Shown one piece after another: positions 25,729-32,416 of a stretch of DNA of 64,000 nucleotides. The notes under the pieces were generated by a model. It had not been told where the DNA came from, did no database searches, and worked only from the letters and a program-made list of their open reading frames with translations. The DNA is taken from positions 62,001 through 126,000 of the forward strand of contig JAFGVE010000023.1 in assembly GCA_016938175.1 (NCBI GenBank). The letters run 5' to 3'. Origin of the DNA: Campylobacterales bacterium. Lineage in GTDB: Bacteria; Campylobacterota; Campylobacteria; Campylobacterales; Sulfurimonadaceae. The position numbers and the translations under genes are program-made. How positions within the stretch are numbered: the stretch's first letter is position 1; the number at the start of each line of letters is the position of its first letter.

Positions 25729-26226
25729 ATGGATAAGATAAATAAAATTCTTCGTGAAAACGAAAGTATACTTGTCAGTGCAGAAATCTCAAAACACTTC
25801 TATAACCCTCTTGTAAAACTCTATGCATTAGGAGTTTTATTACTCTTTATGGGTTACGAACTTGAAATTGGAGTGATAGGAATAGTACTTATTTTACGAA
25901 CACTCTATGTGCATGTACATGAATTTAAAGAGAAAAAATCTTACCATGCCTTTTTAACGCAAGAGCGACTCATCATCTCAAAAGGTCATGCAGTACCTGA
26001 GATATTTCCTATAGAACTGAGTGAAATTCGTACTATTTACATTAAGCCAGTAAGTGAGCGATTTAAAAAGTTGATAGATGTAGGGACACTTGAAGTTTTA
26101 ACGACTTCTGGAGGAAGATACGTTATACGTAATATCAAAGAACCCTATCTTTACCATAGGGCAATTATCGGAGATGTTGTGAGTGCAACCCACTACTCCA
26201 ATAAAAAACGATCAATTATTAGCTAA
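25729..26226 (+). CDS. Membrane protein with bacterial PH (YdbS-like) domain
   Basis: 165-residue protein. Residues 1-25 are hydrophilic, a hydrophobic hairpin of two helices follows (about residues 28-60), and residues 70-150 form a bPH_2-like domain (YHAFLTQERLIISKG ... IELSEIRTIYIKP ... GTLEVLTTSGGRYVIRNI). Such proteins are membrane-anchored with unknown function. It lies 9 bases after the acyl-CoA ligase and is probably cotranscribed. Its 3' end overlaps the convergent ppaC by 8 bases. Confidence 0.75.
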   Translation: MDKINKILRENESILVSAEISKHFYNPLVKLYALGVLLLFMGYELEIGVIGIVLILRTLYVHVHEFKEKKSYHAFLTQERLIISKGHAVPEIFPIELSEIRTIYIKPVSERFKKLIDVGTLEVLTTSGGRYVIRNIKEPYLYHRAIIGDVVSATHYSNKKRSIIS

Positions 26227-27139
26227 ATTGTGGCTGTACAAAAGGAATTACCTGTTTTTTACGGCTTAGCACACCTGGTAACCACACTTGGTGATTTTCA
26301 AGTTTTACATTAAATGCATTCTCAATTTTACTTACATCATCACTGAGACAGAGAAGTTGTGAACCCTCTTTCATAATATCTGTAAGAAGAACTATCATAG
26401 TGTGAAGGCCATCCTCTTCTTTCATTGCTGCCATATCATCTAAAATTTCTTGGTTTCTATCATCAAGTGCAGAAATATCTATCATCTCAAGTTGATTTAC
26501 ACCAACTTTCATACCATTCATTTCAAATGCTTTATAGTCTCTTGTGTTTAAATTACGAGCAGATGCACCTTCAGTTGCAGATTTTACTATGAACATCTCC
26601 ATAGCAAGTTTTTTATAATCCTCTACACCACAAATTTTTGAAAGCTCTTTTACTGCTTTCGTATCAACTTTTGTACATGTAGGTGATTTGAAAATTACTG
26701 TATCACTTAAAATAGCCATCATCATCATTCCGGCAATGTGCTTTGGAATTTCAATGTCGTGTGCTTTATACATTTCATATACAACTGTATTTGAACATCC
26801 AATAGGTCTGATCCAGCACTCTAAAGGTGTGTCAGTTGTAAGGTCTCCAAGTTTATGGTGGTCAACTATACCTAAAATAGTCGCTTCCATAATGTCTTTT
26901 GGAGCTTGTGCTTTATCTGAGAAATCAATTAAGTATACTTTCTCCCCTGCCACAGAAGTTTTTAGTTCTGGAAGAGTACCACCAAAAGTATCTAAAATAA
27001 ACTGTGTTTCAGCAGAGATTTCTCCCTGACGTGTAGGAACACAATCTTCTCCAAGTTGATTTTTTAAATAAGATAAAGAGATAGCACCTACAATTGAATC
27101 GCTGTCGGGACTAGTGTGTCCAAAAACATATGTTGACAT
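26219..27139 (-). CDS. ppaC: Manganese-dependent inorganic pyrophosphatase
   Basis: 306-residue family II pyrophosphatase (DHH superfamily), hydrolysing pyrophosphate to phosphate in the cytoplasm. Metal ligands are visible in FGHTSPDSDSIVGA (H and D residues) and GIVDHHKLGDL (DHH). The DHHA2 domain follows, and the substrate-binding SRKKQ motif lies near the C-terminus (LSRKKQVIPF). Length is typical (about 305-310). It has its own -10 box and AAAAGG before the ATG. No CBS regulatory insert is present. Confidence 0.95.
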   Translation of the reverse strand: MSTYVFGHTSPDSDSIVGAISLSYLKNQLGEDCVPTRQGEISAETQFILDTFGGTLPELKTSVAGEKVYLIDFSDKAQAPKDIMEATILGIVDHHKLGDLTTDTPLECWIRPIGCSNTVVYEMYKAHDIEIPKHIAGMMMMAILSDTVIFKSPTCTKVDTKAVKELSKICGVEDYKKLAMEMFIVKSATEGASARNLNTRDYKAFEMNGMKVGVNQLEMIDISALDDRNQEILDDMAAMKEEDGLHTMIVLLTDIMKEGSQLLCLSDDVSKIENAFNVKLENHQVWLPGVLSRKKQVIPFVQPQFS

Positions 27140-27174: not shown

Positions 27175-27198
27175 AAAAAAAAGCTCTTAAAAGGCTTA
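27175..27198 (-). terminator. Rho-independent terminator of the histidine-kinase-like gene
   Basis: On the minus strand the hairpin AAGCCTTTTAAGAGC (27197-27183) begins at the stop codon TAA and is followed by eight T residues. The pairing stem AAGC/GCTT is short and uses the first two T residues; the T-tract is strong. Confidence 0.55.
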
Positions 27199-28617
27199 TA
27201 TGTTTAAAACTCGTAAGGAGACTTTAAAGAGCTCAGCTTTAGAAATCGGTTTTTTTAAAAATCCTTTTGGAGTCAATGGTGTATTTGAGAAGTCAAGCTC
27301 TTTAACCCTACTATGAATTAAAGGTACAACAGCTATACCTGTTCTTCCTGCAAGAACTTTTGCAACTGCTCCTTCATCATTTGTAAGAATTTCAACATCA
27401 ATTAAAATCATATTGATTTTTTGTGTTTGTAATAGAGGCATAATATCCCTAAAATCCGAATAAGCCAAAAGTGTGACATTACTGTTTTCAAAAGACTCGA
27501 CTATGGTTTCATAATTTTTATTATACTCAGCAACTAAAAGTACTTTTGTATCCTCTTTTAATAAATTGAAATCAGGTGCCTTTTGTTCTGAGTCGTCACT
27601 TTCATTATGTAATACCATCTCAACATCAGAAAGTCTAAAACGAAATACACTTCCTTTAGAGTTTTCACTTTTAAAAGTTATATCACCACCCATTGCAAGT
27701 GCAATTTTTTTATCAATTGCAAGACCCAAACCGATAGTTTGTGCACTCTCATTCTCCGCCTGATTCACGTGTTCAAATACACTAAAAACCTTATCTTGAA
27801 ACTCTTGCGTAATCCCGGCACCTGTATCCTCTACATAAAATGAAACACCTATAGTATTTGTTGTAGGCTCTACATTATCTACTAAAACATTCAACTTAAC
27901 GTAACCCTCTTGAGTATACTTAATGGCATTTTCAATAAGATTTTCTAAAATTTGTTCTACTTTAGTTCCGTCAATATATAAAAAATCAGGTACTTTTTCA
28001 TCTATTTCAAAAATGAGTTTCAAGGACTTTTTTTCTGCTAAGGAAGCAAATCTTTTTATTACAGAACTTAATAAATAGTGTACATCTACAATATTTTCAC
28101 TTACTTCAAAACTTTTGGCCTGCAATTTTGAAAGGTCAACTATATCAGTTAGTAATTGTAGAAGATGATTTGCATTTACAGAAATATGTGTAAGCGTATT
28201 TAAAGAACTCTGTTCCTTGAGACTTTTTTGAAGTGTCTGAGTGTCATTTAAAACCTTGTACAGAGGACGTGTTATCTCTTCTGTAACTTTAGAGAGAAAA
28301 TGTTGTTGTGCCATAGTTGCATTTTGAGCAATAACTTTCAACTCTCTGAGTCTTTTTTTCTGTTTAGCAACTTCAGATTCTAAGAACTCTATTTTTTTAG
28401 TCTGCTCTATCACTAGGGTACTTTTCGAACCTTTGACATCTTCTTTTGAAGATACACCAAACGACTCCACCTTTTTTTTAAGTGATTCACTCTCATGTAA
28501 AGAGGCGATAAGTTTCTTCTCTAAAACCTTCTGCTTAGAAGTGAAATAGAGATATAAAAAAAGATACGTAACAACAAAGACAGTGACAATCAGCGCAATA
28601 GTAAGTCCATTTTCCAT
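27196..28617 (-). CDS. Histidine-kinase-like protein with degenerate phosphoacceptor and C-terminal receiver-like domain
   Basis: 473 residues from ATG 28617: one membrane helix (about 5-25), a long coiled coil (30-100), a HisKA-like dimerisation helix (100-160), a HATPase domain (about 185-330), and a receiver-like domain (355-473). The HATPase N box (ENLIENAIKYT), G1 (VEDTGAGI) and G2 (IGLGLAID) are intact. The H-box reads FLSKVTEEITRPL, so the expected phospho-His is Glu113. The receiver keeps Asp407 (LIDVEI) and Lys456, but the acidic pair reads AE (363-364). It may sense and signal without conventional autophosphorylation. An in-frame TTG ten codons upstream is an alternative start; no good ribosome binding site supports either. 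Confidence 0.85.
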   Translation of the reverse strand: MENGLTIALIVTVFVVTYLFLYLYFTSKQKVLEKKLIASLHESESLKKKVESFGVSSKEDVKGSKSTLVIEQTKKIEFLESEVAKQKKRLRELKVIAQNATMAQQHFLSKVTEEITRPLYKVLNDTQTLQKSLKEQSSLNTLTHISVNANHLLQLLTDIVDLSKLQAKSFEVSENIVDVHYLLSSVIKRFASLAEKKSLKLIFEIDEKVPDFLYIDGTKVEQILENLIENAIKYTQEGYVKLNVLVDNVEPTTNTIGVSFYVEDTGAGITQEFQDKVFSVFEHVNQAENESAQTIGLGLAIDKKIALAMGGDITFKSENSKGSVFRFRLSDVEMVLHNESDDSEQKAPDFNLLKEDTKVLLVAEYNKNYETIVESFENSNVTLLAYSDFRDIMPLLQTQKINMILIDVEILTNDEGAVAKVLAGRTGIAVVPLIHSRVKELDFSNTPLTPKGFLKKPISKAELFKVSLRVLNI

Positions 28618-28680
28618 AACAAAAATTATATCACAACATCTCTGCACTCATAACTATTTTTGATTTTTATGCTTTTTAAC

Positions 28681-28686
28681 TATAAT
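28681..28686 (+). promoter_or_regulatory. Predicted -10 box of AEC transporter gene
   Basis: TATAAT (in AACTATAATTTTGC) 19 bases before the ATG at 28706, implying a short leader. It lies in the 88-base divergent gap with the kinase-like gene, which has its own minus-strand TATAAT nearby (28628-28633) unusually close to its ATG. Confidence 0.45.
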
Positions 28687-28705
28687 TTTGCAAAAAAACG
28701 AGCCC

Positions 28706-29602
28706 ATGGACAACTTTCTTCTTATATTTATTACCTTTACAGCAGGTTATCTACTTAAAAATATCTTTGCACATAACACTTCACTTATACTCAATCAGTT
28801 TATACTTTACATCTCTTTACCAGCAATGATGTTACTACAAATTCCTCGTCTGAGTTTCTCTTTTGATGTTTTTATTCCAATTATTATAGCATGGCTTGTT
28901 ATGGCAATAAGTGCTATCATTATTTTTTACTTAAGTAAGTTTTTCAGCTTCTCTCGTGAAGTGACTGGAGCATTACTCCTTGTAGGTGTTTTAGGAAACA
29001 CGTCATTTATTGGTATTCCTATCACACAAGCGTACTATGGTGATTCATCACTTGCATACGTTTTAATGTATGACCAATTAGGCTCATTTATAGCCCTTTC
29101 AACTTACGGTACTTTCATATCAGTTTACTATTCAAACGGAGAAGATGTTAACATCAAAGCCATAGCAAAAAAAATCCTTACATTCCCTACATTTATAGCA
29201 CTCATAATATCTGTAGCCTTTATAGGAACTACTTTTAACCCTATTGTTACATCAGTCCTTGAATCTCTTGCAATGACTATTGTACCTTTAGCTCTTGTTT
29301 CGGTAGGTCTACAACTTAACTTCAAGCTTCCTAAAGAGGAGTTAAAACCCATGCTAAGTGCATTAGGCGTAAAAATAATTCTAGCTCCACTAATAGCAAT
29401 TGGAATTGTATATATATTTTCATGGGAAGGTTTTATAGCAAATATAGCGATTATGGAAGCTTCTATGGGACCTATGATTACAGCGGGTGCAGTTGCCTCA
29501 ATGGCAGGTCTTGCACCAAGGCTAAGCTCTGCCATAGTAGGTTATGGAACTATAATCGCCTTTTTAACTACTTGGATTGTATATAAAATTTTAGCTATGT
29601 AA
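28706..29602 (+). CDS. AEC family transporter (auxin efflux carrier/malonate-type)
   Basis: 298-residue membrane protein with about ten hydrophobic helices arranged as two five-helix halves, as in the AEC family. The start at MDNFLLIFITFTAGY is chosen because an upstream in-frame TTG (28688) would begin within the promoter. Conserved turns such as LLVGVLGNTSFIGIPITQAYYG and ASMGPMITAGAVASMAGL match. Bacterial members export or exchange organic anions; substrate unknown. Its end overlaps uvrA by 12 bases (convergent). Confidence 0.85.
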   Translation: MDNFLLIFITFTAGYLLKNIFAHNTSLILNQFILYISLPAMMLLQIPRLSFSFDVFIPIIIAWLVMAISAIIIFYLSKFFSFSREVTGALLLVGVLGNTSFIGIPITQAYYGDSSLAYVLMYDQLGSFIALSTYGTFISVYYSNGEDVNIKAIAKKILTFPTFIALIISVAFIGTTFNPIVTSVLESLAMTIVPLALVSVGLQLNFKLPKEELKPMLSALGVKIILAPLIAIGIVYIFSWEGFIANIAIMEASMGPMITAGAVASMAGLAPRLSSAIVGYGTIIAFLTTWIVYKILAM

Positions 29603-32416
29603 TGCCAGCTCTTTTTTAAGATACTCACCTGTATGAGAACCTGTCTGCGGATAGTTTTCTGCTAAATTCTCAGGCGTACCTTCAGCAATGACAAGTCCGC
29701 CACCACTACCACCTTCTGGACCCATATCTATAATCCAGTCAGCATTTTTTATCATGTCAAGATTATGCTCGATTATGAGCATAGAGTTTCCAAGCTCAAC
29801 AAATCTATGAAGTACTCCTGTGAGTCTATCTACATCTGCAAAGTGAAGCCCTGTAGTTGGTTCATCTAAAATGTAAAGTGTTTTTCCAGTATCTTTACGA
29901 CTTAGCTCTTTTGCAAGCTTGATACGTTGTGCTTCACCACCTGAGAGTGTTACTGCATTTTGCCCAAGTGTAATGTAGCCAAGACCTACGTCTACAAGTG
30001 TTTTGAGCTTTTGGTTTATCTTTGGAATAGGAGCAAAAAACTCATAAGCCTCATCAACAGACATTTTTAAAACATCTGAAATTGTTTTCCCTTTATAGAG
30101 TACTTCAAGAGTCTGAAGATTGTAACGTGTACCATGGCATGTATCACACTTCACCATAATGTCGGGTAAGAAGTGCATCTCAATTTTAATCTCACCCTCT
30201 CCCTGACACTTCTCACAGCGTCCGCCTTTTACATTAAAACTAAAACGTGAGCTTGTATAGCCACGAATTTGCGACTCTTTTGTTTGAGCGAATAAGTTAC
30301 GTATCTCATCCATAACACCAGTATATGTCGCAGGATTTGAACGTGGAGTTCTTCCAATAGGGCTCTGATCTAGATAAATAACTTTATCTACTTGTTCAAG
30401 TCCAGTTATCTCCACACCTGCAACTTTATTTACCTTTCTTGCATGATTAAGCAGTTCTCGTGCTGTAGGGAGTAGTGTCTGTAACATCAAAGAACTTTTT
30501 CCACTTCCGCTCACACCTGTAATACAGACAAAGTTATTGAGTGGAATCTCAACACTTAAATTATTAATATTATTTAATGTAACATTTTTAATCCCTATAA
30601 AGTTCTCTTGTGGACGTCTATAAAAATACTCAATTTTCTTTCTTCCGTAAAGATAATCTGCTGTCAATGTTTTTGCTTTTTTCAGCTCTTTAAGCGTTCC
30701 ACTAAAAACAACTTCTCCACCAAATTTTCCCGCACCATTTCCAATATCCACTATAAAATCTGCATGTTCTATAGTCTCTTTGTCATGTTCAACAACAATA
30801 ACACTATTTCCTTTTTCTTGAAGACTTCTAAGTGTACGGATAAGTTTTAAAGTATCACGTTCATGTAAACCTATACTTGGTTCATCGAGAACATACATAA
30901 CTCCCGTCAGTCCAGAACCTATCTGTGAAGCGATACGAATCCTTTGCGCTTCGCCTCCACTAATCGTTCTTGCATCACGACCGAGTGTAATGTAACCTAA
31001 ACCGACATCATGCAAGAAAAAAAGACGCTCACGAATTTCATTTAAAATTGGAGCAGAAATTTGCTTGTTTTGTGAATCTAAGTAAGAGAAATTTTTATCC
31101 TCAGCAAACCATTCATAAGTCTTACTAATTGGCATATCAAGAAGCTCAGATATACCTTTGTGACCAACTCTAACTGCCAAGGATTCTCTTTTTAATCTAT
31201 GGGAACCACATACACTACACACTTTTTCACTCATGTAGTCTGCAAGCTCTTTTTCATCTTTAAACATATCATATGCTATACGAATAATTCCTGGAAAAAG
31301 TCTCTTCACCTTGTGGTTTTTCCACATGAACTCAACTTCATCCACGTTTCCATGTAAAATAGCTTTCTTTTGATACTCTTCTAAATCTGAGTATGGAACA
31401 GTAATATCTATATTATTGTGTTCACAAAAGCCTTTTAAAAATGTAAAATAATATCCTTTATTAAATCCGTATACAATCTTTACAGCACCCTTTTCTATAC
31501 TTAAATCAGTATCAATAATTTTATCCTGATCAAGAGCGTAACGTAATCCCAAACCATCACATTCGGGGCAAGCACCTTTTGGGGAGTTAAATGAAAACGA
31601 AAGTGGTTCCAAAGGCTCAAAGCTGATTTTACAGTCAAAACAAGCATTGTGTTCTGAGTAGTGCATATGTTCTTTACAGCCAAGTTCTTGATGGTTTAAA
31701 ATGTCAATTTCTAACTCACCATACGACTCTTTTAAAGCCTTCTCTACATCAGCTGCAATTCTCTCTTTATTCTCTTCTTTGACAACAACGCGGTCAATTA
31801 CTACCTTAATGGTATGTTTTTTACTTTTTGAAAGTTCAATATCTTCATCAAGACGTACCATAACACCATCTATCATAGCCCGAACATAACCTTTATGTAC
31901 TAAGGATTCTAGTAAGTCTGCATAACTCCCTTTATTCTCTTTAACAAGTGGTGCAAGTAGAACAAGTTTAGCTCCTTCTGGAAGCTTTGCCACTTCGGCA
32001 ATAATATCTGAAGCTGACATTTGAGAAATAACTTTATTACATTTATGACAGTGTTGTATACCAACACGAGCATATAGAAGACGAAAATAATCATAAATTT
32101 CAGTAATCGTACCTACTGTTGATCGAGGGTTTTTTGAAGTTGTTTTTTGATCTATGGCTATTGCAGGTGTGAGTCCTTCGATCTTATCAACATTTGGCTT
32201 TCCGACTCTATCAAGAAACTGACGTGCATAAGATGAAAGAGACTCCATATAACGACGTTGTCCCTCTGCATAGAGAGTATCAAAAGCCAGTGTTGACTTT
32301 CCACTTCCACTCAAGCCAGTCATAACAATTAACTCATTTTTTGGTATTGTTAGATCGATATTTTTGAGATTATTCTCTTTTGCACCTGTGATTGTTATTA
32401 CATCTTTGTTACTCAA
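29591..32416 (-). CDS. uvrA: Excinuclease ABC subunit A
   Basis: 941-residue damage-recognition ATPase of nucleotide excision repair. Two ABC modules are visible: Walker A GLSGSGKSTLAFDT near residue 32 and GVSGSGKSSLMLQT near 640, each with SGGEAQRI signatures. Zinc-finger Cys are present (CxxC in ACFDC/ACPEC, and CEKCQGEG...CDTCHG near 740-770). Length matches the usual 940. The start is TTG with AAGGGA about 6 bases upstream. It follows TauE by 13 bases and so may be cotranscribed with it. Confidence 0.97.
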   Translation of the reverse strand: MSNKDVITITGAKENNLKNIDLTIPKNELIVMTGLSGSGKSTLAFDTLYAEGQRRYMESLSSYARQFLDRVGKPNVDKIEGLTPAIAIDQKTTSKNPRSTVGTITEIYDYFRLLYARVGIQHCHKCNKVISQMSASDIIAEVAKLPEGAKLVLLAPLVKENKGSYADLLESLVHKGYVRAMIDGVMVRLDEDIELSKSKKHTIKVVIDRVVVKEENKERIAADVEKALKESYGELEIDILNHQELGCKEHMHYSEHNACFDCKISFEPLEPLSFSFNSPKGACPECDGLGLRYALDQDKIIDTDLSIEKGAVKIVYGFNKGYYFTFLKGFCEHNNIDITVPYSDLEEYQKKAILHGNVDEVEFMWKNHKVKRLFPGIIRIAYDMFKDEKELADYMSEKVCSVCGSHRLKRESLAVRVGHKGISELLDMPISKTYEWFAEDKNFSYLDSQNKQISAPILNEIRERLFFLHDVGLGYITLGRDARTISGGEAQRIRIASQIGSGLTGVMYVLDEPSIGLHERDTLKLIRTLRSLQEKGNSVIVVEHDKETIEHADFIVDIGNGAGKFGGEVVFSGTLKELKKAKTLTADYLYGRKKIEYFYRRPQENFIGIKNVTLNNINNLSVEIPLNNFVCITGVSGSGKSSLMLQTLLPTARELLNHARKVNKVAGVEITGLEQVDKVIYLDQSPIGRTPRSNPATYTGVMDEIRNLFAQTKESQIRGYTSSRFSFNVKGGRCEKCQGEGEIKIEMHFLPDIMVKCDTCHGTRYNLQTLEVLYKGKTISDVLKMSVDEAYEFFAPIPKINQKLKTLVDVGLGYITLGQNAVTLSGGEAQRIKLAKELSRKDTGKTLYILDEPTTGLHFADVDRLTGVLHRFVELGNSMLIIEHNLDMIKNADWIIDMGPEGGSGGGLVIAEGTPENLAENYPQTGSHTGEYLKKELALHS

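Follow-up and report, generated by a model that had tools for sequence, protein, structure and literature searches.

RetS is a hybrid kinase that acts by conformation or complex formation, and in RpfC/RpfG-type pairs the kinase carries a C-terminal HPt domain. Bacterial pseudo-histidine kinases appear in the literature, as far as the available parts of it go, as single cases. Those parts describe DivL of Caulobacter as binding ATP weakly and lacking autokinase activity (PMC4211667), RocA of group A Streptococcus as a kinase-like membrane pseudokinase that acts through CovS (PMC7028121), and an evolved ChrS variant as regulating without phosphorylation of its own (PMC9491836); by these accounts, therefore, pseudokinases can regulate without phosphorylating themselves. 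Among HD-GYP proteins, the available part of the report on PA2572, a YN-GYP protein, describes an inactive variant whose regulatory effect is kept (PMC3774798). The kinase family described here did not appear among the titles that we searched on pseudo-histidine kinases, histidine kinases and HD-GYP proteins of Sulfurimonas, degenerate HD-GYP proteins, RpfC/RpfG and RetS/GacS, in which subscription journals were thinly covered.

The window, by which we mean the whole stretch of 64,000 nucleotides analysed (Campylobacterales bacterium, contig JAFGVE010000023.1), carries a gene whose product had been described, in a sequence-only reading, as a histidine-kinase-like protein without the phospho-accepting His. 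The gene and its parts are as follows.

27196..28617, minus strand: putative pseudo-histidine-kinase gene, 473 amino acids, ATG at 28617, assigned by homology to 26 full-length proteins of the same genus
28540..28605, minus strand: hydrophobic, probably membrane-spanning stretch, residues 5-26 (translation inspected by eye)
28102..28332, minus strand: DHp domain, residues 96-172 (HisKA match at 104-167, under the cut-off; AlphaFold2 helices 66-132 and 136-166)
27610..28092, minus strand: CA (ATP-binding) domain, residues 176-336 (HATPase_c, E 3.3e-19; 29 of 32 family-invariant residues)
27202..27549, minus strand: degenerate receiver, residues 357-472 (Response_reg under the cut-off; receiver-like strands and helices in the AlphaFold2 model)

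The frame is intact, with 473 codons and no internal stop, and an alternative GTG start at 28647 would give 483 amino acids. The protein begins with the hydrophobic N-terminus seen by eye, which is followed by a long helix (AlphaFold2 helices 2-56 and 66-132), the DHp and CA domains, and a receiver that forms the C-terminal end. The Pfam scan found HATPase_c well above its cut-off (69.8 versus 26.4 bits), with HisKA (19.4 versus 26.9 bits) and Response_reg (14.2 versus 30.2 bits) below theirs, and no PAS domain at E values up to 10. An AlphaFold2 model built with the 27 family sequences as input had a mean pLDDT of 82.7, with low confidence in the ATP lid (residues 281-294, pLDDT <50) and residues 55-65. 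Compared with the PDB by Foldseek, the model matched histidine kinases including ShkA, GacS, RetS and DivL, with target TM-scores of 0.86 for RetS (6dk7) and at most 0.71 for DivL (4q20).

The residues on which phosphotransfer and ATP binding would depend lie at the following positions, all placed by alignment.

28261..28299, minus strand: H-box FLSKVTEEITRPL, residues F107-L119 (translation and family alignment)
28279..28281, minus strand: Glu113, codon GAA, at the position of the phospho-accepting His (translation and family alignment)
27913..27942, minus strand: N box, residues 226-235 (N226, N230)
27811..27828, minus strand: G1 box DTGAGI, residues 264-269 (D264, G266, G268)
27721..27738, minus strand: G2 box TIGLGL, residues 294-299
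27526..27531, minus strand: Ala363-Glu364, replacing the acidic pair of the receiver
27397..27399, minus strand: Asp407, the receiver phospho-acceptor position, kept
27250..27252, minus strand: Lys456, kept

Translation and alignment bore out the earlier observation that the His codon of the H-box is GAA here. The Thr117 of the HExxT motif is also replaced, by Arg, and of the 23 DHp columns that are invariant in 17 His-bearing relatives (a set that includes the class-defining His itself, 1 of the 23), 12 are altered in the window kinase and 11 kept, so that Glu113 is not a single-base accident. The description of the N, G1 and G2 boxes as intact held for the N box, the G1 box and the GLGL core, but was slightly generous for G2, because the Gly-Thr that usually precedes GLGL is Thr-Ile in the window. 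What had been said of the receiver, namely that AE stands for the acidic pair and that Asp407 and Lys456 are kept, proved accurate, and we found in addition that the conserved receiver Thr is replaced by Ile434. A phosphorylatable receiver has two acidic residues, the Asp, a Thr or Ser and the Lys; in the window kinase A363 and I434 depart from this set. Asp407 is conserved in 26 of the 27 family members. Two His-bearing kinases, L005 (in G115) and L006 (in G116), have receivers without one or both acidic residues (CN and CD), showing that a receiver can decay without loss of the His.

The gene content of the window's genus would suit Sulfurimonas (Campylobacterota). The family was assembled by searching 135 genomes of this genus, which yielded 27 full-length members including the window kinase, whose closest relative is 38% identical at best. 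With 228 genomes searched in total, the other genera of the taxonomic family gave no member at E <= 1e-60, and in an order-wide sample of 398 genomes the matches outside the genus reached at most 460 bits, compared with 558 for the window kinase. The one locus confirmed in a single-protein scan of genome contigs encodes a distantly related kinase from SAR324. Beyond the family, the nearest proteins are hybrid kinases ~1045 residues long, the best of which scored 462 bits, compared with 558-819 within the family. Four incomplete members were left outside the counts, two with split frames (G030 and G127, at L096:6059-7629 and L098:2222-3981, which may reflect decay or assembly error) and two at contig ends (G128 and G036); the H-box is visible in three of the four, all of which have the His.

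Position 113 is His in 17 of the 27 members and another residue in 10: Glu in the window, L016, L028 and L023, Asp in L015, Tyr in L013, Thr in L017, L019 and L025, and Ile in L029. The sequence-only reading had held that orthologues with His at this position would mark the change as strain specific. Such orthologues do form the majority, but the 10 members without the His fall into at least two lineages, and Glu113 is therefore not strain specific. A strain-specific change or a sequencing error was excluded by these 10 members together with the 12 altered DHp columns. The two classes also differ at the C terminus. A tail of ~106-114 residues follows the receiver in 17/17 His-bearing members (65 are seen in L027, which runs into a contig end), compared with 0-14 residues in 9 of the 10 His-less members, the window having none and L023 having 107. 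No Hpt domain was found by Pfam in the tail of the His-bearing kinase L010.

Whether the His was lost once or repeatedly was addressed with two trees. The kinase tree needs four changes to account for the His-less set, and a single loss was not rejected on it (p-AU 0.19). The tree of UvrA plus PpaC, built on the kinase-bearing genomes (27 rows, of which 6 are less than half filled), requires three changes, and on it the His-less set as one clade, and with it a single ancestral loss, was rejected (p-AU 3e-50). That rejection presumes vertical inheritance, which is supported by the conservation of the slot next to ppaC. The L015 and L017 groups could not be separated from one clade (UvrA plus PpaC, p 0.579), and neither could the window, L013 and L023 (p 0.504), so that the safe minimum is two losses. 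Read in this way, the trees make it firm that the His was lost independently at least twice within the genus, and the best trees would place the number at three or four.

The changes are not spread evenly over the protein. With the 17 His-bearing members as the reference, the window kinase keeps 11 of 23 DHp, 29 of 32 CA and 11 of 13 receiver invariants (DHp versus CA, Fisher p 0.0007). Across the 10 His-less rows, the number of invariants kept ranges from 9 to 18 of the 23 in the DHp and from 27 to 30 of the 32 in the CA domain; the contrast reaches p < 0.05 in five of the nine other than the window and lies above it in four, and it occurs in 0/17 His-bearing rows, each left out with its near sisters. 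This pattern points to a loss of the constraints that phosphotransfer and docking would impose, with the CA fold kept. By alignment, the ATP lid is shortened by 11 residues in L015, L016 and L028 and by 9 in L017, L019, L025 and L029; these losses in two other His-less clades speak against ATP binding as the common function.

Over the whole gene, dN/dS (NG86) was 0.073-0.172 in 9 His-less pairs and 0.074-0.239 in 9 His-bearing pairs, values that are rough, since many of the dS values exceed 1, and that on the His-less side come from two His-less groups, with the window, L013 and L023 outside them. In the His-less forms measured, purifying selection is thus as strong as in the His-bearing ones. 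For the window kinase itself we obtained 0.39-0.51 with dS saturated, a value that would also fit relaxed constraint and that we did not use.

The surroundings of the gene differ between the two classes as well.

26219..27139, minus strand: ppaC, Mn-dependent inorganic pyrophosphatase (NCBIfam NF003877, 416 bits), a conserved neighbour 56 nt downstream of the kinase
28618..28690, no strand: partner slot, holding a REC-HD-GYP gene in His-bearing relatives; that gene is absent in the window, where the oppositely oriented auxin-efflux-carrier-like gene starts
28688..29602, plus strand: auxin-efflux-carrier-like gene in the partner slot (TIGR00946, 88 bits, under the cut-off)
29591..32416, minus strand: the other border of the slot, a neighbour shared with relatives, which we take from its sequence family to be uvrA

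In 17/17 His-bearing genomes a REC-HD-GYP gene lies immediately ahead of the kinase on the same strand, with a spacing of -14 to +7 nt, and all of these partners have the receiver acidic pair and Asp, the HD and the HHExxDGxGYP stretch. The adjacent partner is missing from 6 of the 10 His-less genomes (those of the window, L013, L017, L019, L025 and L029) and degenerate in the other 4 (L015, L016, L028 and L023), where HD has become YD. The partner receivers in L015, L016 and L028 have lost the phospho-acceptor Asp (Ala by alignment), and that of L023 has an altered acidic pair. An independent-pairs test of correlated loss had only 2 usable pairs, too few for significance. The partners gave dN/dS of 0.039-0.132 when degenerate (3 pairs) and 0.040-0.098 when intact (7 pairs).

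In the window the slot is taken by the auxin-efflux-carrier-like gene, oppositely oriented and ~40-70 nt from the kinase start, which shares 12 nt with the end of uvrA (29591). Some genomes without the kinase, for example at L140, have genes like it close to the slot. Neither kinase nor partner is present in several genomes of the genus, where uvrA adjoins ppaC (e.g., L129, L134, L135, L143 and L146). At L136 (G048), an HD-GYP gene 57% identical to a partner adjoins ppaC with no kinase between them, and in G116 (C1:2576352-2577002) the kinase-adjacent ppaC matches only residues 1-217 of the window PpaC and contains two TAG stops.

A search of the window genome (G000) for a relocated partner at E <= 1e-120, below which a strongly degenerate copy could score, gave a sole match, on contig C7, 50.9% identical to the partner of L075. 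It lies beside a large kinase of its own with an intact H-box, and we took the two as a paralogous pair and not as the moved partner. The search for genomic partners that the sequence-only reading had proposed thus found the adjacent HD-GYP gene absent but did turn up the C7 kinase/HD-GYP pair, which is a candidate only as a present partner of the window kinase. In G002, whose genome is a single contig and encodes a His-less kinase, the partner profile matched nothing at E <= 1e-120, and a C7-type pair therefore cannot be the general answer. Same-strand genes ahead of the His-less L019 in this genome (L084:3485-6848) resemble, by eye, REC-GGDEF-EAL and membrane-PAS-GGDEF proteins, types that again bring in c-di-GMP.

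In G009 (L113) and G071 (L099), a ~1045-residue kinase and a preceding HD-GYP gene occupy the same slot just before ppaC. By eye, these large kinases appear to have two periplasmic binding-protein domains. The presence of a large kinase in the same slot makes a sensor-bearing kinase of this locus the probable ancestor of the small family, and the ~1045-residue kinase with its HD-GYP gene before ppaC is likely to be the ancestral form of the locus.

A histidine-kinase fold that lacks the His, and is conserved in that state among relatives, defines a pseudo-histidine kinase, and here 10 of 27 members are His-less, with low dN/dS in two clades. The reading that we favour, with some reserve, is that a two-gene system supplied the hybrid kinase from which the window protein, now a pseudo-histidine kinase, descends; several lineages would have lost the phosphotransfer chemistry, kept the DHp helices and CA domain, and come to signal by conformation. 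The ancestral system between uvrA and ppaC would have comprised a REC-HD-GYP regulator and a kinase of the order TM-coiled coil-DHp-CA-REC-tail. The His would then have disappeared in several lineages, in many cases along with the tail, and the partner would have lost key residues or gone entirely, while the kinase retained the dimerisation helices, predicted to be membrane anchored, and the ATP-binding domain. The window protein would be unable to autophosphorylate on its H-box and may still bind ATP, or at least keep the fold for it; it would signal by conformation, most likely through DHp pairing with another hybrid kinase or else through docking of a receiver protein. On this analysis it is likely a membrane-anchored dimeric pseudokinase working by conformation or complex formation. 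The earlier suggestion that it may bind ATP and signal by conformation, or modulate another kinase, was thus supported in part, the loss of His chemistry and the retention of an ATP-binding fold being backed by sequence; the absence of the HD-GYP partner and of the tail, and the joint decay in relatives, go beyond it.

Other explanations fit some of these data. A kinase/c-di-GMP-phosphodiesterase module may have turned non-catalytic more than once in the genus, working by ligand-driven conformation, with the pseudokinase in some cases retaining as its partner a pseudo-HD-GYP protein that would keep the HHExxDGxGYP stretch and with kinases of the window type recruited alone to another pathway; we put this forward tentatively, as possible and no stronger. 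Somewhat unlikely, in our view, is that the window copy is a decaying relic without present function, its partner lost, its sequence under relaxed constraint and heading for loss. Such a copy might well form the longest branch of the kinase tree (1.47), without partner or tail and with the additional receiver losses A363 and I434, in a genus where some genomes lack the pair and two kinase frames (G030 and G127) are split, but decay of this kind sits poorly with an intact 473-codon frame, with the kept CA and receiver invariants, with strong purifying selection in two other His-less clades, and with codon-position differences from L013 that are least at second positions (0.32, compared with 0.58 at third).

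The kept Asp407 and Lys456, the former in nearly every member, would suit a phosphate sink fed by another kinase, and the DHp domain could in principle act as a phosphatase of a regulator; Ala363 and Ile434, however, stand where an acidic residue and the conserved Thr would be expected, Response_reg falls under its cut-off and the HExxT phosphatase residue is Arg117, and we consider this role improbable. Autophosphorylation on another residue, for which the sequence-only reading had named His106, is the least credible. His106 does lie seven residues ahead of position 113 in the same predicted helix, but none of the 26 other members, His-less ones included, has a His there, Arg stands for Thr117 in the altered neighbouring H-box, and in the receiver the Thr and one of the acidic residues are missing.

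Retention of a pseudo-histidine kinase after repeated loss of the His and damage to or loss of its partner amounts to a natural experiment in the passage from an enzyme to a non-enzymatic signalling part. Within one genus, a single locus holds the kinase with or without the His, the partner being intact in some genomes and degenerate or missing in others, and this makes testable the order in which His and partner were lost and the use to which a dead kinase is put.

Set beside the described systems, the window kinase resembles DivL, as far as the available part of that report goes, in its histidine-kinase fold, a phospho-site that is not His, and the N, G1 and G2 boxes that are kept. DivL differs in having PAS domains and a Tyr, whereas the window kinase has a short TM-coiled-coil start, a Glu and a C-terminal receiver. 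RocA, by the part of its report available, differs in that its His is present but dispensable and that several CA-domain residues are missing. The kinase region of RetS is among the best fold matches, and a RetS-GacS DHp co-complex structure exists (7n0e, from a partly available source). The His-bearing relatives resemble RpfC/RpfG of Xanthomonas in pairing a hybrid kinase with a REC-HD-GYP gene but differ in a tail that is not a Pfam HPt (L010), a short N-terminus in which no sensor domain is evident and another neighbourhood; the window kinase departs further, lacking both the adjacent REC-HD-GYP gene and the tail. For the YD partners of four His-less kinases the nearest precedent is PA2572, although it has YN and, in the available part of the report, its pairing with a His-less kinase is undescribed. 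Pseudo-histidine kinases are known to be able to act without phosphorylation; what the present family adds is that loss of the His recurs within one genus alongside decay or loss of the partner.
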